This document shows positions 8,481-45,160 of a stretch of DNA of 64,000 nt, piece after piece. Positions within the stretch are counted from its first letter, which is position 1, and the number at the start of each line of letters is the position of its first letter. The position numbers and the translations under genes are program-made. The DNA is from Ciborinia camelliae (lineage: Eukaryota; Ascomycota; Leotiomycetes; Helotiales; Sclerotiniaceae): positions 678,405-742,404 of the forward strand of contig JANPYM010000003.1 in NCBI GenBank assembly GCA_025890175.1. Reading direction: 5' to 3'. The notes under the pieces are model-generated. The model had not been told where the DNA came from. It saw only the letters and a program-made list of their open reading frames with translations, and searched no databases.

Positions 8481-9350
8481 TGAATCCAGCATGTAATTGC
8501 CTTCATCGAGAATCAACCCAGTCCAAAACCCCCAAAAAACGACCTTGATTCATAATCAACATCATCAAATGATGAAAAAAATCATAGATGATTTATTCGC
8601 CAACACACACACATACATACAAACATACAAAGATAGATACCCATACCCCTATCCATATCCATGAAGAGAAATTAGCATCGCATCGACACTCTTCTTTCCT
8701 TTTTTCTTTCCAATTCTTTTTTTTTTTTTCCAAAAAAAATCTCCCCAACACACGACGCTCAACATACGAGCCCTCGACACCCTAGACAGACATTCTGGGG
8801 TTGGGGTTGGGGGATCTACAATTGATAGATCGATAGCTAGCCGTCACCAATACAGGCGGGGGATCCCCATCCATCCATCCCCGTCTCAACCGAGATCTCC
8901 CTAGTTTGACGGACGGACCTGCTTACGTGGAATTGCTACGTGGAATATCATTTGGAATGTTTGCATGGATGTACCTTGGGGTGATGTAACCGAGGTACTG
9001 TCATTAAGGGGGGATTTTATTGATTGATTTTGATTTCGATTGAATAGAGAGGATGGATGGATGATCTTCAATTTTGCATGATTGCATGAGTGAGGATTTT
9101 TTTCTATACGGGCAGAGTTGGATCGGATCGGATTTTGATCGGATCTGATCGTATCGGATCCACATTTCCGTTTCAACGTTCCATACCTACCTTGGTATTC
9201 ATGCGTGGCGGGGCATTGACATTCATGCATTTGGAATGCCTGTACCCTACCTACTCAGAGTCTGGACTTGGCTGGATTGGCTTATGGTAACTTAACCTTA
9301 ACGCATAAGTTATAATAAGTTATAAGTTAGTTTAGGTTATCGTGATGCAT
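8481..9350. other. intergenic, simple repeats
   Basis: Contains CA/TACA-rich sequence at about 8601-8660, a poly-T then poly-A stretch at about 8720-8740, and GGATCGGAT-type short repeats at about 9120-9165. No gene is apparent. Confidence 0.5.
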
Positions 9351-9469
9351 GATGGGGATGGTGATGGGGATGGTGATGGGGATGGTGATGGGGATGGTGA
9401 TGGGGATGGTGATGGGGATGGTGATGGGGATGGTGATGGGGATGGTGATGGGGATGGTGATGGGGATGG
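9351..9469. repeat. 12-bp minisatellite GATGGGGATGGT, about 10 copies
   Basis: The unit GATGGGGATGGT repeats without visible mismatch about ten times. Because 12 is a multiple of 3 it reads as an uninterrupted Gly-Asp ladder on the plus strand, but there is no protein-like sequence on either side, so I treat it as non-coding. Confidence 0.95.
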
Positions 9470-10944: not shown

Positions 10945-11130
10945 TTAGATGTTAAATTTTAGATGTTAGATTTTAGATGTTAAATTTTAGATGTTAAATG
11001 TTAAATTTTAAATGTTAGATGTTAAATTTTAGATGTTAAATTTTAGATGTTAAATTTTAGATGTTAAATTTTAGATGTTAAATTTTAAATGTTAGATGTT
11101 AAATTTTATATGTTAGTTAAATGTTAGATT
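10945..11130. repeat. 14-bp AT-rich minisatellite (TTAGATGTTAAATT)
   Basis: About a dozen tandem, slightly diverged units of TTAGATGTTAAATT, with some units shortened. It directly follows a CACGTG/CATGTGACC-containing segment at about 10890-10930 that resembles the palindromic repeat at 4398. Confidence 0.9.
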
Positions 11131-14238: not shown

Positions 14239-16194
14239 GGTGTCAGTACTTGCCTACTTAGACTTATGCAAGAGTTGACAGTGAGTGCTACATGGATTGA
14301 TTGAACTGTAGCGTATCTTAGCTGCATATGAATATTGACCGGACTCTTGGTATTGCGGATGAGGTAATATACTTTTGATGCAGTGCGCACCACTGGTTGG
14401 TGTACAACAGTGCTTCTAGAGGTCCAGGGCTCGGGATATACGAGAGATGAAAGTTTCCGGAGCGCCCAAGACAGGGAAGATAGGATAGGGACGGTAAATA
14501 TTCACTTGTGCCAATCCAACTCGGTCGTGTTCTAGAATTTCTAGTCTACCCTCCCCTTCAAAAGGTAGAGGGGGTCTAGATCTCCTTGGTGCAGTAGCGT
14601 CAGGAACGGGTGGGAATTGGAAGGTTGTCGAACGAGGCTTTTCGAGGGAAGATGAGTAGATTTTAGTTTGAATTCGGGTTGATCCTTTTCATTATTGATT
14701 TTTAAGTCAAGGGGTACCATGCGGGGGGATGAGATTGACTTTTGATTGCGGAACTTTTCGTTTCAAATTTTGATGTGGCGAATTTTAAAAAGATGAGGAA
14801 TACCGGTAGAGGAGAAGGAAGAAGCAAGGAATGTAAAATTTGAGGACTTGGTGAAAGACGTTGAACTTAAGACGTTGAACTTGTAACTTGTTGTTGGACC
14901 TGGTACCGGTATCATACAGAGCGGGACAAGAAGAGGCTGATGGATGATGGATGGTGGGTGGTGGGTGGTGTATCGTGGATGGTGGGTTGGTTGGAAAAAG
15001 GAAAGGGATCGTAGGTAGAGGAGAGGAGAGTAAGGGGAAAAGAGAGCTTGGAACCCTTGGTGAATATTGATATTTGTGTGTAATATATATGTATATATGT
15101 ATGTATGTATAATATGTACTAGGTAGGTAGGTAAGAGGTAAGAATAAGTATATCTTGGAGGGGAGGGGGGAAGGGGAGGAGAGGAGAGGAGAGGAAGAGA
15201 GGAAATGGGAGACTGGTCGATAGATCTGGTACCTACGTATTATATTTGTATTTATGACCTACACACTATACTACACTACACAGTACACTATAGATACAGT
15301 CTACCAACTACACTACCCAACATTCCAAACCTTTCCCATTCTCTTTATGGAATAAACCATGGAAGGAGATCTTAAGTAACTAGGTAGGTAGCTAATACTA
15401 GTAGGAATCTATCTAGGTACCTAGGACATTGAAAAACCGTTTGAATGCGGGATACACCAAAAATTAACTTTCTCGATAGGGGAATAATAATATCAAAAAT
15501 CAATAGAATGATTAATGATCTTCCTTAGGGGAGAAAATCATCTTCCATGCTTACAGCCTAACCTAACCTACCAGTTATTAGTGTGGTTTTGACTCGTATG
15601 ATTCAAATCACTCAATGCTCATTGCTTTCCCCTGTGTTAACCACTTGGCATTATTTGCTCATAAATCTATTCATTCTTTTTTACTATCTAGGTGCTTATT
15701 ATCTAGATAGGTAATTTACTATATACTATAGATGATAATATCTATATAGGTACTTACCCAATATCTTACATATACTCCAAAAAAAATCATATAATAATCT
15801 AGGTAGGTCAGACTTAAGTCTATGCAATCTGTCTACGGACAGAATCCAGATTCCACACTTTATTTACTACATACAATACATAAATACTAACCTTGGAAAT
15901 TTTAAGTTCTAACCTACAGGACCTACTTAGCTAACCGAACGAAGCACATATCATATCCCATATTAATTGATCGGGTCTCGGCTCGAATGTACTTACTCAC
16001 TACAGAGTACTCATGCATATCCATCTACCTACCTACCTGTCTGATTTGTCTAGACTCTCTCTCTCTCTCTCGAAATTGAATCATAATATCATCGCCCCAT
16101 CAATCTCATCTTATCCTATCCTATCCTATCCCATCCCATCTCCCATCAAATAAGTAAGTTTCCTACCCTCTAGACTCTAGACTATACACCTACC
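14239..16194. other. intergenic, microsatellite-rich
   Basis: No gene seen. Upstream sequence of the 756-aa gene is followed by G/A-rich repeats (GGATGGTGGGT at about 14940-14990, GGGGAGGAGAGGA at about 15160-15205) and many GGTAGGTA/CCTAGGTA motifs. TATC-type and TCTCTC runs occur at about 16050-16140. Confidence 0.5.
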
Positions 16195-16940
16195 TACCTT
16201 AGCGGAGGTACCAGGTGTTGAGAAACCGTTAATATACTATACCTATTATAAAAAGCTATATTTGAAAACTATAAATTGTGATTTCAAAAATAAACCATAT
16301 ATATAAAGATAAATAATCTATAAATATAAATTGTATATAAATATAAATAATATTTAATTATAAATTATATTTTAACAAAAAAGCCGTATTTAAACCGAAA
16401 TACCGTTTTTGAAAATAAATCGTTTAACAAAAAAGCCGTATTTAAACCGAAATATCATTTTTGAATTAAAACATCGTTTTTAAATTAAAATACCATTTTT
16501 GAATTAAAACACCGTTTTTGAAAATAAATCGTTTTTGAAACTATTTTAACTATATAATTTTATTTATTTCTAATTAATCAAAACAAAACATATCCTTTAT
16601 AGTGTAATGGTAATGCGTTTGATTTGAATTTCAAAGTTGAAAAAAAAATTGAAATAGAAAATATGAAATATCTTAATTGATTGATATTTCTTTTTATTTT
16701 TTTTTAAATCAAAAATATTTAAAAACAATTTTTATTTTCAAAAACGCTTTATATTTTCAAAAACGCTTTATTTTCAAAAACGTTTTATTTTCAAAAACGC
16801 TTTATTTTCAAAAACGCTTTATTTTCAAAAACACTTTATTTTTAAATATAATACGAATACTCCACCAACTAAGATATAGTTTCTGAACCTAATCACAATG
16901 AAATCACTGTTTTTAAACCCCTAGTACCTCCGCTAAGGTA
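16195..16940. mobile_element. TIR element, 746 bp, non-autonomous
   Basis: The first 17 bases, TACCTTAGCGGAGGTAC (16195-16211), are the exact reverse complement of the last 17 (16924-16940). Weaker similarity continues inward for roughly 20 more bases. TA at both ends could be a duplicated TA target. The interior is AT-rich and repetitive: two copies of an AAAAAGCCGTATTTAAACCGAAAT unit lie on the left, and about six copies of a 17-bp CGCTTTATTTTCAAAAA unit lie on the right (about 16740-16835). The right-hand units are largely inverse copies of left-hand CGTTTTTGAAAATAAA sequence, so the whole element can fold back. No transposase is encoded, and the family is unrecognised. Confidence 0.75.
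16593..16640 (+). other. tRNA-like relic (D-arm resembles tRNA-Gln/Glu)
   Basis: TATAGTGTAATGGT (16598-16611) matches the 5' stem end and D-arm (box A) of fungal tRNA-Gln/Glu genes. It is followed at the right distance by a self-complementary GTTTGA..TTTGAAT..TTCAAA segment that could be an anticodon arm with TTG in the loop. No intact T-arm (GGTTCGAATCC) follows, only A-rich sequence with TTGAAAT. I call it a decayed or tRNA-derived fragment inside the TIR element, not a functional gene. Confidence 0.3.
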
Positions 16941-19349
16941 CCTAGTATCCATAGTCCGTCCACCACGCGGAAATCTGCACCGCACCTTAACCACAAACCA
17001 CCCACAAATCACAACAGAACAGGAGGTCCAACATATCCATATCCATCCATACATTTAACTTCAACCCCACTTATTAAGTAGAGCCAAAAATCGATCGAGA
17101 AGAGCGTTAATTAAGTAAAGCTCCCGAGGTCATTCACGAATCAACCAACATCTTTATAGAGTAAAGTAAAAAAATCACCGTATTATTACCTAGGTATTAA
17201 TATATCATGCTCAATTCTGCATTGACATCTACCATACCATACCATACCTACTTCGTAGTCGGTCTATTGAAATTGAGATGATATCACTTTACTTACTGAT
17301 TGGGAATAGAATAGACTAGAATAGATTATACCTAAGGTAGGTAATATTGGATTTTTTTGGGAAGAGAAAAGAAAGAGAGGAAATGCTTATAGTTAGTGAC
17401 CTATGGATACCTATAGGTAGGTAGGTATGTGATGTGACATCGTTCCTCTCTCTTATTCTTTCCATGTTTCCCTAAAGGAAGAAAGGAAGGAAGGAAGGAA
17501 GGTTGTTTACGGAATACCTATTTAAGCTAGGTATGTATTTAGGACCTAGGTATGTGATTTGCGATTTGGTACGTAGGTATTCTTATAGGATGTTTTAGTA
17601 TGTATGTACTTACTACCTAGGTAGGTATGTAGGTCGTCGAATTGTGGAGAGGAAGGATAGGTAGGTATGGAGAGAGTATCTTTTTTATATATCTAGCCTT
17701 GCTCCGTATTATATTGTATTGTACTTCAAGACCTCGAATCAAGAGTCAAAACATTCCAAGGTTATTCATCATTCACGAATCAGGAGAAATGAATATCATC
17801 CATCTATTCGATAATTTCCATTTACCTACTTGGGTATCTTTGGCTTAACATCATCAGGTACTAAAATATACAAAGCTTAAAGAATCAATATTGATAAATA
17901 TATTATACCCAGGTACCATCCACCTACCTAGAAATCCATACCTCCTTTTCTCATCTTCCAAAGTTCCAATTATCTACCATTCATATTATCTATATCTAGT
18001 TTGAGATTCTATCTGCACTCTTTATATCTAGGTCTAACCAAATAAATAAATACTCTTGATCGTCCCTAAGTCCAGAGTCCAGAGTCTAGAGTCCAGATAT
18101 CTTTCTACCTAGGTATCTATCATTATCACTCGACTTCCATAAGATATGGATTCTTGCTGACCACTTTCCGTACTCCTCACCTAGGTAGATAGGTATTTAT
18201 AGACCATAGATAGGTAGGGACCTAGCTGGAGGTACCTACCTACCTAACCTAGAATCTTAAACGATGCATAAACATTAACTTAAATAAATATAAATCTATA
18301 TTTCCAACCATATATCACATCACTCCAGCCCGCGGCTTCAGTGATTCATATAAAATTATCTGTATCAACTTTATAGCGAGATGATACTATGGTTTAAAGA
18401 CAGATTCAGATTATATATATATATATAGGTAGTAAGACGTTACAAACGTAAAGGATCGATAGGTAGGTATATAGTAATAAGTAAGTAGTCCGGGGGTCTG
18501 GGTCCCCAACTTGGAATTGAAATGAATGGTCTGTGGATGTCTGTGTGCAAGTATATAGGTACCTACCTAGGTATCTATATAGGTATACATAGATATTATA
18601 TAGATAGATAGATAGATAGATAGATAAGTTCAATCCTTTTTATTTCTCATATCTTCTTATCTCATCTCTTCAATCTATAGTACATCTTCAACCTTTAACC
18701 TCGATATTATTTAATATACAAACAACATGAATTGGATCAATCCACTGGCACATCTCCACTCTTCACGGCATTGAATATGGTACCTACCTATTTCATCTCG
18801 TTACCAATTCACTATATACTGTATACAATCGACCAGGATTGAGACGGACCAATCTCATCAATTAACTTCTGGATAACCGGGATCTGAGAAACAAAACCCA
18901 TATTCAATTCATAAACATATTTCGTGTCGGTTTCAACTTTTCGTCTGGAAGCTCCAGCGGCGGATTTCCTTTTTTTCTTTTCTCGATCAAGATTGATTCA
19001 GGAGAGGAATACTGTTTACGGATTGTGTTGTGTTGTGTTTCATTTTCAATTTGCATATTTATATACCCACATATACATCTTGCAAACATAACCTTACACT
19101 TGGATTCAGTATTGTGAGTTGTGATCTGTTCCGATTAATCGATAGAGCCTGGACTCTGGAGGGAGAAGTTATTGCTTGAGTGATTTATCTACGAACATTA
19201 TTATTTTGATTTTTATCCTTACGATATTGGTTGATTACACAGCCAGCCGTGCAGAGCCAAGATTACTACGTATTCGGGTGCATTATCACAATTCACCAAT
19301 CAACAATCAACTCACCAATCTATTCACCAATCAATTCCATTCACCAATC
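16941..19349. other. intergenic, TAGG/CCTA repeat-rich
   Basis: AT-rich DNA with many TAGGTAGGTA and ACCTAGGTA motifs, a GGAAGGAAGG run at about 17475-17505, an AGAGTCCAGAGTC array at about 18070-18097, and GATAGATAGATA at about 18600-18625. The segment just before 19350, with AATCACCAATC direct repeats at about 19290-19350, is the likely promoter and leader of the next gene. No gene seen. Confidence 0.5.
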
Positions 19350-37353: not shown

Positions 37354-39832
37354 ATGCGCACTTCTTTACTCACCCTTGGCTTTGCCGCTAGAGCACTTGC
37401 TCAAACAGCTGCTTCATACGTGGATGCTAACACCGGTATCACATTCGAGGGAGTTACGGACACAACCGGATTCAAGTTTGGTATGGTTATGGAAGCCAAT
37501 GCCACATCTGACTTCATTGGTCAAATCGTAAGAACATATTCATTGTATCATTACTGCACAAAATACTAATATTAATTAGGTCTTTCCAAGCACAGATGGC
37601 TCAGGATACGCAGGGGTTTCATTGACTGGTGATATGGTTGGCAGTATGTTGATTGTCGCATGGCCAAGTGGAACTGATGTCATCTCTTCGTTGCGTGAGA
37701 CTAGTGGATACACTTCTCCAGGTGCCTACGCAAATACCACTGCGCAATTGTTGCCAATTGCAAATGGTACCTTTGTCAACTCAAGTCACTTGTCATATAC
37801 CTTTCTTTGCCAATCTTGTATTGGAAATACTTATACCTTTGCTTCGGGTGCCAGCCAAGTCATCCTTGGATGGGCTCTTGGAAACGGCACTGTCACAAAT
37901 GCAGCATCTTCCACCGATGCGACTTTCACATACCACGGATCCGGATATGGTGATTTCGGTATTGAAACTGCCAATGCTGTAAATGAAAATTTCGCTAAAT
38001 TTGCCGCCATGGCTAGCTCTGCGGTGTCCAGCAACACGACCTCATCTACCGATACCACAACCTGCTCAAACGCTACAGTGTCAACTTCTGATTCAACATA
38101 CGACTATATTATCGCGGGAGCTGGTCCAGCCGGTATTATTGTTGCCGAGCGTCTAGCCGAGAGCGGAGCATCTGTATTGATGTTGGAAAGAGGAAATGTT
38201 TCCACATATGCAAGCGGTGGCAGAGCAACAGTTTCATGGAACGATACCGTTACTCAATATGATGTTCCTTCCATGTCATACTATCTCACAACCGCCTCTG
38301 TCAGCAATGAGTACTGCACAGACACTGCCTCAATGGCTGGATGTCTTCTTGGTGGAGGTACCATGGTCAATGCCTTGATGTTCGTCCGCCCACAAGAAGC
38401 TGATTTCGATGACAAATGGCCAACTGGATGGAAATGGACCGATGTCAGTTCGTCCGCCGACAGACTCTATGAACGTAACCCAGGTACCACCAACCCTACT
38501 GCAAACTCCGAACGTTACGATCAAGGCGCATGGAATGTTCTCTCTTCATTCTTGGATAATCTCGGATGGTCTGAAGTTGATGCTATCAAATCACCAAACG
38601 AGAAGACCCAAGTTTACTCTCATCCACCTTGGGATATTCAAGATGGTCTCCGTGCTGGTCCTGTAAAGTCTTACTACCCTCTCGCTACTGCCATGAGCAA
38701 CTTCAAGGCTCAATTCAACACGAAGGTTATTAGAGGTATCCGAAGTACCACAAACAGCTCCACTTTCTCTGGTGTTGAAGTTGAGAACGCCAGCACTGGT
38801 GTCCGTCAAATCATCAACCTCAAGGCAGGTGGTAAGCTCATCCTCGCAGGTGGAGCCATGTCCACTCCCCGTATCTTGATGAACAGTGGTATTGGACCAA
38901 CCGACCAGATAACCACCGTCAAAAACGGAAGCAGCTGTGTTACCCTCCCATCCGAATCCGATTGGATCAACCTCCCAGTCGGCAAGAACCTCAAGGATCA
39001 CCCAATCTTCACTCTCGTTTTTAACGTCACCGGTTCCATGGCCAGCAACTTCACCTCTATGGCATCCACCGCCTTCACATCACCAAGCACCACAAACATT
39101 GACCTTTTCGCCCAACAAAACGGACCACTCGCTCAATCTGGCCAAAGATTGAACTTCTGGACTTCCCTCAACACTACCACTGGCACCAAGTACTTTCAAG
39201 GAACATGCAACTCTCCTGCAGCTGGCAAAGTACGCATCAAGCTCTACCTTACTCACGGTTTGACATCTACAGGTGTTCTGGGAATAACGGGCGCAGGCGC
39301 AACAGAATTCACTACCAACCCCTGGATGAACACCGCCGATGATAAAGCCGACATCGAAACCATGATCGACTACTTCTTAGACGCAGCCAAGAACAGTACT
39401 ATGTTGACTCCCGCAGACAGTTCCGTTACCGGAGCATCTATGGTAGCAGCTAGTAGTTACACAACTGGTGATCATTATACGGGAACTGCTATTATGGGCG
39501 AGACCAATGATGGATCGAGTGTTGTGGATACCGATACCAAGGTTTGGGGAACCGACAATTTGTTTGTCGTTGATGCTTCTATTCACCCTGATATGCCTAC
39601 TGGTAATACTCAGGCCATCGTCATGGTCGTTGCTGAGCAGGCTGCGCAGAAGATCTTGGCGCTGAGTGGAAAGACTATCTCTTCCTCCAGTACACCCACA
39701 CCAACTACTTCATCTTCATCTTTGAGTAGCAGCAGCGTTGCTTCGGCTACTTCATCAGCTTCTTCGGCGGCGGCTACCGTTCCAAGTGATGATGATGATA
39801 CCTGTCCAGCTGGTTATGAACTTGAGGAATAG
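37354..39832 (+). CDS. secreted cellobiose dehydrogenase (cytochrome + GMC flavodomain)
   Basis: Two exons (37354-37527, 37580-39832) give 808 residues. A signal peptide (MRTSLLTLGFAARALAQ) leads into an N-terminal CDH-type heme b cytochrome domain (about 19-205) with the expected ligands M77 (GDM) and H177 (YHG). After a Ser/Thr linker comes a GMC-oxidoreductase flavodomain: dinucleotide motif AGAGPAGIIVAERL at about 237, and the catalytic His-Asn pair H727/N734 in IHPDMPTGN. Cellobiose dehydrogenase oxidises cellobiose and passes electrons through the heme to lytic polysaccharide monooxygenases outside the cell. There are many N-glycosylation sites. The Ser/Thr-rich tail (about 758-795) looks like a linker to a carbohydrate-binding module but ends in DDDDTCPAGYELEE with no CBM1. 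The enzyme call is firm; a substrate preference cannot be read from sequence. Confidence 0.93.
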
Positions 39833-40932: not shown

Positions 40933-43579
40933 TCACATCAATTTGTCAAACTCCTTCTCCCCCTCGGGCGGCTGCAAATAATTATCCTCCAACCATTCAT
41001 ACTGACCCTCCACAACCCCGAAATTAAACGCGACACGACTCTTGCTACTGTAGTTCGCTTCACTTGTATGCATAAGATTCCCATGCATCAATACGAGGGT
41101 CCCCGCTTTCACTTCCAATTTCTTGTATCCGAACCCTCCATTTTCATTCTTTCGCGGGAGACTCGTATCAGAGACATTTTCGATCCGCGCAAAAACCGGG
41201 GTATCCAAATCGGCAAACTCCGGTCTTCCTTTCGCATCGGCCCTGCACCGTCGTGTAATCGGTTGTACACGATGGCTTCCAGGCGCAACTGCCAAACATC
41301 CATTTTCCGTCGTGCAATCCTCGAGAGCATACCAGAAAGTCGTGCAACTAGACGGGTCCGTGAAACCGGAACAGCCATCCTGGTGTGGGATGACACGCGC
41401 GCCTACTTCGGCTGCTTTGACTATGATGAGACTTTGTATGATGCGCGGATCCTTGTAGCCTAGAGATTTGGCGAGGGCGGAGTGAAAGGGGTTTATGATT
41501 GCCTTTCGAAATGCGGGCATGACGCAATGGATTCCGCATCCGAGACGCTGGATGCGTTTTAAAGGCTCGATGTTGGGTTTGAAGGCATCTTGTGGAAGGG
41601 GTATGTTAGTAGTACGAGAATGGATTTGGGAACCGCAACTTACATTCGGTTAATGTTGCTATTGCACGACCGGAGGGGTGGACGTAAGACTCTTCTCCAG
41701 GGAGATAGGAATGCTTTTGTACCCTTTCGCCTCCACGAGCAAGTGTCTCTGCTGCTTCATGCACAGTCTTGAGTAAAACGTCTGTTTGACCACCTGACAT
41801 TGCATTTGGAATGACGAGGTAACCATTGTCTCTCCAAAATTGTAATTGCTCGTCACTTAAACGACCTTTATTGGACTCATCAGAGGCAACTGATTTTGAA
41901 ACCGAGCCAATGTCCTCTGGTTGTAAAGTGGTCCGGTTGACAACGGGAGCTTTGTCGGGTGAGTGATGGATTGAGTTTTCCATGAAACTTTTCGTGGGTT
42001 CTCTTACAGGAACTAAACGGCCTTGGAGCACTTGGGATTTCCATTTGAAAACGACTGGAATGGTCTCGGTGATATTATCCCCAAGAGGCAACTCTAGAAA
42101 TTGGGACTTCATTTCCACAACATCGGGGATGACTTCAGTGATAGTATCCCCAAAAGAAGGAGAGTGCATATCTACCACTTGCGAGTTTGACTCTAAAATT
42201 TTGGTATTGTTATTTCCTTGATTGTTGCCATTGCAACCATTCTTATTGTTCTGATTCCCAAGCAACAATCGAGAGATAAGTGGACCGTATTCATCTCTGA
42301 CGGATAGATCATTGACATTTACGCCCTCCATAGCCGACAATTCCAGTGCGATATTCCTGGGATGCAAGGTATCAGCTATCGGTACATCAGTGGCGTTTGC
42401 ATTGCTGGAGCCATTAGAACCGTTGTTATTATTCTGATTTCCAAGCAACATTGCGAAAAGGAGTGGTCCATCTTCGGCATTAGCTGAGGATGTACTATTG
42501 ACGGGAGCTTCTTCGAAATTATCTTGGGAATGCTTCAACTCAAAAGCAACATTCCTGGGATCCAAAGTATCAACTATGACTGTGTAATCTAAAAAACGTG
42601 GAATATTAGTGTTCTGCTGACCAGCCATCAGCGCCAAGATTATTGGTCCATCCTCGCCATTTTCAGAGTATTTAACGTCATCCAGAACTTCCCCAGCATC
42701 ATTTTGAGAAGGCTTGAATTCAAGAGCGACAGTCCTAGGATCCAAAGTATCAGGTATGACATCAGGCCTATGAACGGGGACAGGCTGGTTTCTCTGACCA
42801 GCCAACAACCCTAAGACTATTGGACCATCCTCGCCGTTATCAGAGGATGTATAGTTATTGAGAATTTCCCCAGAATCACTTCGAGAAAGCTTCAACTCAA
42901 GAGGATTATTCCTAGGATCCAAAGTATCAGGAATGGCGCCACCACTGACCGGTGCAATTACTGCAGCAGCAAGGTCATTATTGTTCTGATTGTTGAGCCG
43001 CAATCCTAGAACTACAATCATAGAAGAGTCAGTGACTTCTTGTAAAGAAAAACCTTCGGGGGAAAATGAGGAATCAGAACTGCATACGCATGAGATGTAT
43101 ATGATGAAATATTCATGCTAAATTTAGATGTTGGAGAGCATGATATGGAAGAAATGATAAAACTTACGGATGGTACCACCCTCGCCATCGCTTTTAACAA
43201 TGGATGCATCACCGTCAATTGGCTCTTCAATTTGATTTCGAGGGGGTTTCAGTTCGAGGGCATAATTCTGAGGATTTAAGGTGTCTGCAAGAGCCATGTC
43301 TTGAGTCACGGCGTTATTGTTGTTATTTCCCATCAACAGTGTTAGGAGGAGTGGTCCATCCTGATCTTTGCTGATAAATTCGTTATCAATGAAAGATAGA
43401 TCACCGTCACCTGCTTCTTCGACATCGCTGTGAGACGGTTTCAGCTCGAGAGCATGATTCTGAGAATTCAAGGTATCTGGAATAGCTCCAGAATCTCTAT
43501 TATTATTTGACAGTGTCCAGAGGTGAGCTCCATGACTGCGAGATTCCTCTGTAACTTCATTTAACATCGAGGATGTCAT
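40933..43579 (-). CDS. PhyH-like Fe(II)/2-oxoglutarate dioxygenase with six N-terminal repeats
   Basis: Three exons (43168-43579, 41644-43011, 40933-41588) give 811 residues. Residues about 520-811 are a phytanoyl-CoA dioxygenase (PhyH) domain similar in outline to PHYHD1: Fe ligands H662 and D664 (PHQD) and H767, with R778 for 2-oxoglutarate, in LMHTSEANYSSKSRV. The enzyme should hydroxylate a small molecule or lipid, with Fe(II) and 2-oxoglutarate; the substrate is unknown. Residues about 33-409 are six imperfect repeats of 55-65 residues. Each has DTL.PRN.ALELK, an acidic middle, (E/D)DGP(L/I)hhhLLhGNQNN and an Asn-rich end. Residues 410-520 are a linker with degenerate repeat traces. There is no signal peptide. 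Two introns fall exactly where the repeat and catalytic frames join, supporting one fused gene rather than two neighbours. Confidence 0.85.
42197..43483 (-). repeat. six coding repeats of the dioxygenase N-terminus
   Basis: Repeat starts in the protein are residues 33, 97, 164, 223, 283 and 349 (IPDTLN, LADTLN, IPDTLD, IPDTLD, IVDTLD, IADTLH). Each ends in a hydrophobic run followed by G(N/Q)(N/Q)N. Units 3 and 4 are the most alike and unit 6 the most diverged. An intron interrupts unit 2. The repetition is visible at the DNA level as recurrent GGATCCAAAGTATC(A)-type blocks on the plus strand. Confidence 0.9.
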
Positions 43580-44591: not shown

Positions 44592-45160
44592 ATGGGACCT
44601 CACCACAACCACTCCCTACACATCCAGCAACGAAAACATAATGACCATGACCACATCATGAAACGTCTAGATGGATATATCAAAGCATACAGAAAGGGAG
44701 ACACGGAAGCCATCATGAAATTCTACCATCCAGACAACTTTGTCTACTCAGACTTTAGTGCGTCTATCCTTTCTTTCCTTCTCCCCTTCTTCCAGCTCCA
44801 TGCATAATCCACTACAAACCAAAACTCCAAACCATCCCCCTCAAGCCCACTAACCTCCTCTCCTCCCCAGGCACCTCCAACCGCCAACTGATGGGCCTCG
44901 AAGAAGTAGCCTCCCATTACACGCACACCTTTAACGATTTCCACGATCTCCAAATCCGCACGCTTTCCGTGCACGGCCACAAAGATTTCACAGCCTGGGA
45001 ATGGGAGATCTCATGCAAGCCGGCTATTGATCAAGAAACGGGCAAGCGGTTGGCGAAAGAAGAAGCAGAGTTGAAGAAATTGGTGGGGTGTACATTGATG
45101 TGGTGGGAGGATGATAAGATTGTGAGGAATCATGATTATGTGCAGCTTAAAGAGGTTTAG
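44592..45160 (+). CDS. SnoaL-like (NTF2-fold) protein
   Basis: Two exons (44592-44757, 44871-45160) give 151 residues; the intron runs GTGCGT..CCCCAG. After a His-rich N-terminus (MGPHHNHSLHIQQRKHNDHDH), the protein reads MKRLDGYIKAYRKGDTEAIMKFYHPD and then ASHYTHTFNDFHDLQI. This is the pattern of a SnoaL/NTF2-like fold domain: a helix pair followed by a strand-rich barrel with FTAWEWEI and WWEDDKIVRNHDYVQL. Members range from polyketide cyclases to small-molecule hydrolases and many are uncharacterised. There is no signal peptide, so it is likely cytosolic. No neighbouring biosynthetic genes suggest a pathway. Fold assignment is fairly confident; function is open. Confidence 0.75.

Follow-up and report, generated by a model that had tools for sequence, protein, structure and literature searches.

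Why should a fungal oxygenase carry a long array of repeats in front of its catalytic domain, and what might the two do together? The question is raised by a minus-strand gene of Ciborinia camelliae at positions 40933–43579 of the window (the whole 64,000-nt stretch analysed, positions 678,405 to 742,404 of contig JANPYM010000003.1), described in an earlier sequence-only reading as a PhyH dioxygenase fused to six copies of an undescribed repeat. Splicing its three exons in silico yields an 811-residue product that is 100% identical over 811 residues to the deposited protein NHQ30_002725 (P0001). Judged by sequence comparison, the protein belongs to an ancient, distinct branch of PHYHD1-type Fe(II)/2-oxoglutarate oxygenases in Pezizomycotina that carries an array of the undescribed unit, and this suggests an uncharacterised enzyme family equipped with an assembly or docking arm of its own. 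We give a probability of about 0.45 to the reading that it is a PHYHD1 paralogue which has diverged, bears a flexible multivalent arm and acts on a substrate other than a 2'-O-methylnucleoside.

The fused gene and its repeat unit

The fusion does not depend on splicing, because exon 2 (41644–43011) reads as a single unbroken frame that by itself holds four units and the start of the PhyH domain; it runs from the end of unit 2 through units 3–6 and the linker. Exon 1 (43168–43579), the same as in the deposited protein, encodes a worn N-terminal motif, unit 1 and the start of unit 2, and exon 3 (40933–41588) encodes the bulk of the PhyH domain and the stop. The junctions 43168/43011 and 41644/41588 that the sequence-only reading had singled out are the exon edges of this spliced gene. 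Intron 1 (43012–43167; 156 nt, GTAAGT...TTGTAG) contains in-frame stops when read through and interrupts the hydrophobic motif of unit 2, the halves of which are rejoined by splicing as GGTI followed by LLGLRLNNQNNN. Intron 2 (41589–41643; 55 nt, GTAAGT...ACAAG, phase 1) lies within the PhyH domain, at a position that looks by eye to be common to relatives, since unspliced metagenome frames exit the domain at the same place. That two adjacent genes have been joined in error is hardly credible. One lichen metagenome-assembled genome does have repeats and PhyH on two successive locus tags (P0151, P0050), but four units, linker and domain start share one frame in exon 2, and the same fusion recurs in relatives and in unspliced metagenome frames. 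Barring sequencing error, we reject a gene-calling artefact at this locus, where exon 2 bridges the junction between repeats and PhyH; the proposed fusion is thus borne out by the exon 2 frame, the deposited protein and the relatives.

N-terminal to the PhyH domain, the array consists of six units (DTLxPRNxALELK, an acidic spacer, then DGPLLLxLLxGNQNNN), each starting at its DTL: unit 1 at residues 35–89 (43313–43477), unit 2 at residues 99–149 (42977–43285, with intron 1 inside the span), unit 3 at residues 166–214 (42782–42928), unit 4 at residues 225–273 (42605–42751), unit 5 at residues 285–333 (42425–42571) and unit 6 at residues 351–394 (42242–42373). All six were located by translation, profile and pattern count. 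The DTL...ALEL pattern occurs six times at these residues, confirming the number first proposed, and a GPLL pattern occurs five times, both counted over residues 1–420, where 20,000 shuffles gave at most one of each. The unit is built on core A (DGPLLLxLLLxNQNNNN) and core B ((I/V)xDTLxPRxxALEL), and consecutive A cores lie 59–65 residues apart. A worn seventh hydrophobic/Asn motif is found at about residues 16–28 (43496–43534, its extent judged by eye), where a profile match covers residues 22–46/47 at 20–23 bits. The unit profile gives seven matches above 15 bits in the protein, in A-then-B phase: the worn motif with the first B, five A–B pairs, and a last A without a full B. This profile was trained on sequences that include those scored, and its fair controls are 940 shuffles of the 47 unit-bearing proteins described below (best score 7.7 bits, none above 15) and 73 PhyH rows from outside their clade (best 5.3 bits).

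Across the cores of the six units, the proportions of synonymous (pS) and nonsynonymous (pN) differences are 0.64 and 0.25, a pN/pS of 0.40 (codon bootstrap 0.29–0.52). The cores are constrained by purifying selection even as the number of copies changes. At the DNA level, units 3 and 4 form a 177-nt tandem repeat. Both Asn codons are used in residues 33–409 (35 AAT, 16 AAC), which a pure trinucleotide tract would not show. Conservation extends beyond the Sclerotiniaceae: among the 32 units of 15 named proteins from outside the family, N12 is retained in 27/27, P3 in 24/24 and E40 in 18/18 units where the position is present, a recount restricted to named proteins because an earlier set included metagenome proteins that had been placed by eye or not read. 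The spacers from one B core to the next A core are less uniform. They differ in sequence and length and are of an acidic kind, chiefly in Sclerotiniaceae, and an Asn/Ala-rich kind. Counting the 116 of 124 that span 11–40 residues (eight with fewer than 8 or more than 45 residues were dropped), 110 are net negative, with a mean charge of −4.1. Several like sticker motifs parted by poorly conserved polar or charged spacers are thus found in Ciborinia and the Sclerotiniaceae, and less clearly elsewhere. Amphipathic-helix moments are near zero in four of the six cores.

The description of the repeat as undescribed is upheld by the databases and literature we covered. The unit has no significant match in Pfam, NCBIfam or PDB, and we reject its identity with a known domain. 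A Pfam scan of nine repeat regions returned only five unrelated families (E 0.011–0.086, one member each) that look like chance, as does a match of exon 1 to LpxD (E 0.12). Neither the motif letters nor the locus tag SS1G_06266 found a match in open full-text literature, a scope that excludes subscription papers and preprints. No description of the unit was found in the accessible portions of open literature on PhyH/PHYHD1 in fungi and on repeat-bearing or asparagine-rich dioxygenases, and the portions consulted of PMC9815663 (a term check), PMC5485727 and PMC11878562 do not mention it. A PhyH transcript of Monilinia (PMC5987419) is taken to be a different, more conserved gene because it is 91–92% identical to its counterparts in B. 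cinerea and in two species of Sclerotinia.

One clade of oxygenases with an altered pocket

The PhyH domain occupies residues 530–779 (41032–41836, intron 2 inside the span; Pfam PF05721, E 9.8e-29, 101.6 bits against a cut-off of 22). Its Fe/2-oxoglutarate site is intact, as had been stated: H662, D664, H767 and R778 are all present, the first two iron ligands in H662-Q663-D664 (41377–41385) and the iron ligand H767 with the 2-oxoglutarate ligand R778 in a segment at 41035–41070. Each of these four residues is kept in 52 of 54 rows of the clade defined below.

Homologues were gathered by protein searches within length windows, two of which scored about 8,000 candidates sharing most words; 26 proteins from one search and the best 120 of 168 from another gave 129 distinct proteins, including that of Ciborinia. 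Scoring the unit as a profile against fungal proteins, a check that the sequence-only reading had proposed, found matches in 47 of the 129 homologues. Forty-five of the 47 could be placed on a tree, all in one PhyH clade that spans four classes of Pezizomycotina. The unit is present in every Sclerotiniaceae protein of the set (Ciborinia, Botrytis/Botryotinia, Monilinia, Sclerotinia, Stromatinia), in the Dothideomycetes Microthyrium, Venturia, Ascochyta, Boeremia, Setomelanomma and Alternaria, in Paramyrothecium (Sordariomycetes), in seven proteins of lichen fungi such as Trapelia and Caloplaca (Lecanoromycetes) and in three metagenome proteins; Endocarpon (Eurotiomycetes, P0123) retains an apparent remnant. 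Classes were looked up for Ciborinia (Leotiomycetes), Microthyrium, Venturia, Paramyrothecium, Trapelia and Endocarpon, and are presumed for the remaining unit-bearing genera. The statement that PhyH proteins are normally stand-alone and about 300 residues long holds outside the clade, where most rows have 300–340 residues; inside it, fusion is the rule.

A first tree used 77 of the 127 rows that had enough domain, the unit-bearing fragments P0024 and P0026 being excluded for their short domains. In it, 45 unit-bearing and nine unit-less rows form one group (Shimodaira–Hasegawa-like approximate likelihood ratio test, 100), and the 23 rows outside this group all lack the unit. A second tree of 42 hand-chosen rows, including human PHYHD1, likewise gathers 25 clade rows (24 of the 54-row group plus P0078) into one clade with support 100/100 and a stem of 2.33. 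Across both trees the stem measures 2.3–2.7 changes per site. Such a long stem has to be read with care, but both the unit and the pocket are consistent with the clade. One origin of the fusion, followed by losses or by cut gene models, is the simplest reading. Eight of the public entries (P0035, P0040, P0049–P0052, P0054, P0055) are apparently truncated or split at the repeats, which may hide the fusion in databases.

What does the clade's enzyme act on? In a 2025 study (PMC12709175), PHYHD1-type enzymes, including a fungal one from Choanephora, demethylate free 2'-O-methylnucleosides, an activity not seen for human PHYH, and docking places the ribose on K102, H105, Q139 and W277, with F161 stacking. 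Human PHYHD1 (PDB 2OPW/3OBZ) has the same domain and is the best PDB sequence match to the Ciborinia protein (E 1.4e-27); the two share the H-Q-D...H...R site. In the alignment, however, only one of the four ribose contacts is kept (Q139 as Q645): R608 and C611 (41536–41547) replace K102 and H105, Y797 (40978–40980) replaces W277, and S667 stands in place of F161. The change marks the whole clade. Outside it, 71 of 73 rows have KHQW in the four columns (one further row is gapped). Inside, 46 of 54 have RCQY and none shows K, H or W at any of the three altered positions; 51 of the 54 carry S, V or T in the F161 column. The sole outside row with RCQY, the short and unit-less metagenome entry P0078, is the one placed inside the clade by the second tree. 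Because the trees were built from alignments that included the pocket columns, clade and pocket are not fully independent. Since the catalytic residues are kept and pocket residues are changed, the clade's substrate has probably changed relative to that of PHYHD1, for which the contacts come from docking.

Besides the pocket, the Ciborinia protein differs from PHYHD1 in its long repeat arm and its separate clade. Ordinary fungal PHYHD1-like proteins (e.g., P0056) are the nearest outside group, with about 40% domain identity, but most have 300–340 residues, no unit and the KHQW pocket. C. camelliae itself retains such a gene (C5:1593417-1594409; 67% identity with a Cercospora protein over the best stretch). 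The branch, which includes Botrytis, Sclerotinia and Monilinia, is a well-supported sister branch of PHYHD1 with the same catalytic residues and a consistently different pocket, and the label "phytanoyl-CoA dioxygenase" on these proteins may mislead. It offers a clean test case for an enzyme that may have acquired a repetitive arm along with a new substrate, as well as for the role of a conserved hydrophobic-plus-Asn motif; the unit merits a family entry of its own.

What the array may do

How might such an arm serve the enzyme? We suggest that the Leu-rich hydrophobic cores act as stickers, binding each other or repeat-only partner proteins, and that the acidic and Asn/Ala spacers hold the stickers apart. 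The array would serve to concentrate the enzyme, cytosolic or nuclear, or to anchor it, and the enzyme would hydroxylate or demethylate a small molecule other than a 2'-O-methylnucleoside. Unit number, which varies among species and isolates, would tune the strength of gathering, and the repeat-only proteins would be optional partners. Next to core constraint, spacer make-up and copy-number change, which are observed, self-association of the array is what we infer; either self-assembly or multivalent binding by the array is plausible from its sequence. Secretion and peroxisome targeting are rejected: a simple regular expression for peroxisomal targeting signals 1 and 2 finds no such pattern in P0001–P0053, and no signal peptide is seen by eye (no predictor was run).

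Copy number ranges from one to seven units above 15 bits in the 47 proteins. Six entries of B. cinerea have 6, 5, 5, 4, 4 and 4 units, as counted on annotated models, one of which (P0023) holds an apparent shifted stretch. A further comparison took the 77 units above 30 bits from 18 chosen proteins. The best match of the first unit is another first unit in 15 of the 18, that of the last unit is another last unit in 10, and six units have their best match within their own protein. On this comparison the front end of the array is fixed and the remainder moves more.

Candidate partners occur in three named species, in which the unit was found without PhyH among 41 matches (37 of them new). In Sclerotinia nivalis, OCU04_011617 (P0130) has 299 residues and five units, the PhyH protein of this species being OCU04_005275; P0140 of Botrytis tulipae and P0147 of B. 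paeoniae are likewise repeat-only. Each of the three species also has a fused protein (P0030, P0021 and P0015, respectively). Because P0130 matches P0140 (148 bits, 49% identity) and P0147 (140 bits, 70%) better than any fused protein (best 121 bits), the repeat-only protein seems to represent a second gene that has been conserved, in worn form in B. paeoniae. We inspected 24 of 33 further new matches, 11 of which continue by eye into the start of PhyH; P0151 (Heterodermia) probably represents one half of a gene model that was split.

Several observations weigh against a diverged paralogue with a multivalent arm. The presence of the unit needs nine changes on the first tree, because nine clade rows lack it, and at least four of these changes are forced by supported branches. 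Five of the nine rows show signs of truncation or remnants: P0051, P0123 and, weakly, P0040 have remnants by eye, P0035 is marked partial, and P0050 adjoins a repeat-only model by locus tag. The other four (P0049, P0052, P0054, P0055) begin at, inside or just before the PhyH domain and cannot be judged for the unit. A single unit above 15 bits, a poor fit to multivalency, is seen in 8 of the 47 proteins, some of which may be cut models. Outside the Sclerotiniaceae the spacers of named proteins are negative in only 9 of 14, a weak acidity. On a charge-hydropathy plot the Ciborinia array lies barely on the disordered side (−0.004), and the N-termini of 3 of 11 relatives and the Ciborinia linker fall on the folded side. 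Finally, two protein searches, with their best candidates scored, returned only this gene for the unit in C. camelliae and no repeat-only paralogue.

The closest rival, which we nevertheless consider unlikely, is an array of short linear motifs in which the DGPLLLxLLL or xALEL core docks on a specific folded partner (for instance a co-activator, transport or scaffold protein) without self-assembly. It would fit two cores conserved residue by residue, the existence of single-unit members and a spacing in the core that looks LxxLL-like by eye; hydrophobic cores between acidic spacers, as in Sclerotiniaceae, also recall acidic transcriptional activation domains. Such domains are typically richer in aromatics than this array, which has 12 in 377 residues. 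There is no known partner, the acidic spacers shrink to 9 of 14 outside the Sclerotiniaceae, and the Asn run is left unexplained. The possible amyloid of the sequence-only reading fares worse. A functional amyloid or prion-like array, in which the LLLxNQNN core forms a cross-beta structure with Asn ladders and serves as a template for the repeat-only protein, is in our judgement improbable, less likely than either the multivalent arm or the docking array. Its appeal lies in the strictly conserved Asn positions and in a free-standing repeat protein in three species that resembles a template/effector pair. On the suggested check of amyloid propensity, an aggregation scale peaks over all six cores of the Ciborinia protein and over 15 other stretches as well, 21 in total. 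A Q/N-rich prion domain is expected to hold at least 30 Q/N in 80 residues. The highest count across all 47 unit-bearing proteins is 27, and the Ciborinia protein reaches 24. A Leu-rich, acidic make-up such as this one is also generally unfavourable to amyloid. Pfam, the one source compared here, matches no amyloid-motif family (HRAM, sigma, PP) to the whole protein or the nine repeat regions, and no receptor-type domain occurs among ten reading frames scanned in the window. The HET-s/sigma/PP amyloid signalling motifs (PMC5485727) are likewise short repeated fungal motifs with kin proteins elsewhere; they differ from the Ciborinia unit, which has no Pfam match, a Leu-rich core and long spacers, and which sits on an oxygenase and not beside a HeLo-type or NLR partner.

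The oxygenase might instead find its substrate in the array itself, modifying Asn, Leu or Asp in its own repeats as well as in those of the repeat-only paralogue. The strict conservation of N12 and E40, the coincidence of pocket change and fusion in one clade and the lack of any other catalytic domain with the repeat among the candidates scored fit this idea, and repeat-only relatives could serve as substrates in trans. Characterised PhyH enzymes, however, act mostly on small molecules. By eye, with no predictor run, the protein shows neither a signal peptide nor a dibasic processing pattern and is not an obvious secreted peptide precursor. We regard the proposal as improbable, and hold the same view of its more specific form, in which the remodelled PhyH domain would hydroxylate its own LLLxNQNN/ALEL units and the repeat-only proteins and so switch assembly. 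If true, the enzyme would carry its substrate on the same chain as a tandem array, while another gene would encode the substrate alone. Borosin precursors are self-modifying proteins in which an enzyme is fused to its substrate peptide. The proposed arrangement would be alike, although the enzyme class is different. Less probable still is a tolerated minisatellite, a functionless in-frame tandem duplication. Variable copy number, the DNA-level tandem of units 3 and 4 and two units of the Ciborinia protein that are mutual best matches would suit it; it sits badly with purifying selection on the cores, with their conservation across classes and with first units that match first units in 15 of 18 proteins.

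Linker repeat and genomic surroundings

A second, distinct repeat of about 21 residues, GDTITExIPDVxEMKSQxLEL, is present in two copies between the array and the PhyH domain (42020–42151). Copy 1, GDTITEVIPDVVEMKSQFLEL, covers residues 425–445 (42089–42151) and belongs to DNA family D7 at 70% identity; copy 2, GDNITETIPVVFKWKSQVLQG, covers residues 448–468 (42020–42082). Kin of the linker repeat are found in proteins of other Sclerotiniaceae, namely Botrytis, Monilinia, Sclerotinia and Stromatinia.

Ten reading frames were chosen across 21–60 kb of the window, nine of which match Pfam at E ≤0.01: a cellobiose-dehydrogenase-like flavocytochrome, a SnoaL-like protein, Nramp, a Na/Ca exchanger, uracil-DNA glycosylase, a mitochondrial carrier, an F-box protein, a formyltransferase and Pex2/12. 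This set is not typical of a secondary-metabolite cluster, and we reject that interpretation for the frames scanned. The flavocytochrome (CDH-cyt plus GMC oxidoreductase; 37580–39829) lies downstream, tail to tail with the fused gene. Upstream and divergent is a small gene at 44592–45160 with apparently two exons, the second part of which is weakly SnoaL-like, below the Pfam cut-off. Farther away, the window has its sole undetermined run, of ten N, at 2762–2771. A perfect 12-nt tandem repeat with 10 copies lies at 9350–9469 and a 14-nt repeat with 12 copies (TTAGATGTTAAATT) at 10945–11116. The stretch at 16001–18000 is AT-rich (31% GC), contains tandem repeats of 17 to 52 nt and is possibly a degenerate mobile element or affected by repeat-induced point mutation (RIP).

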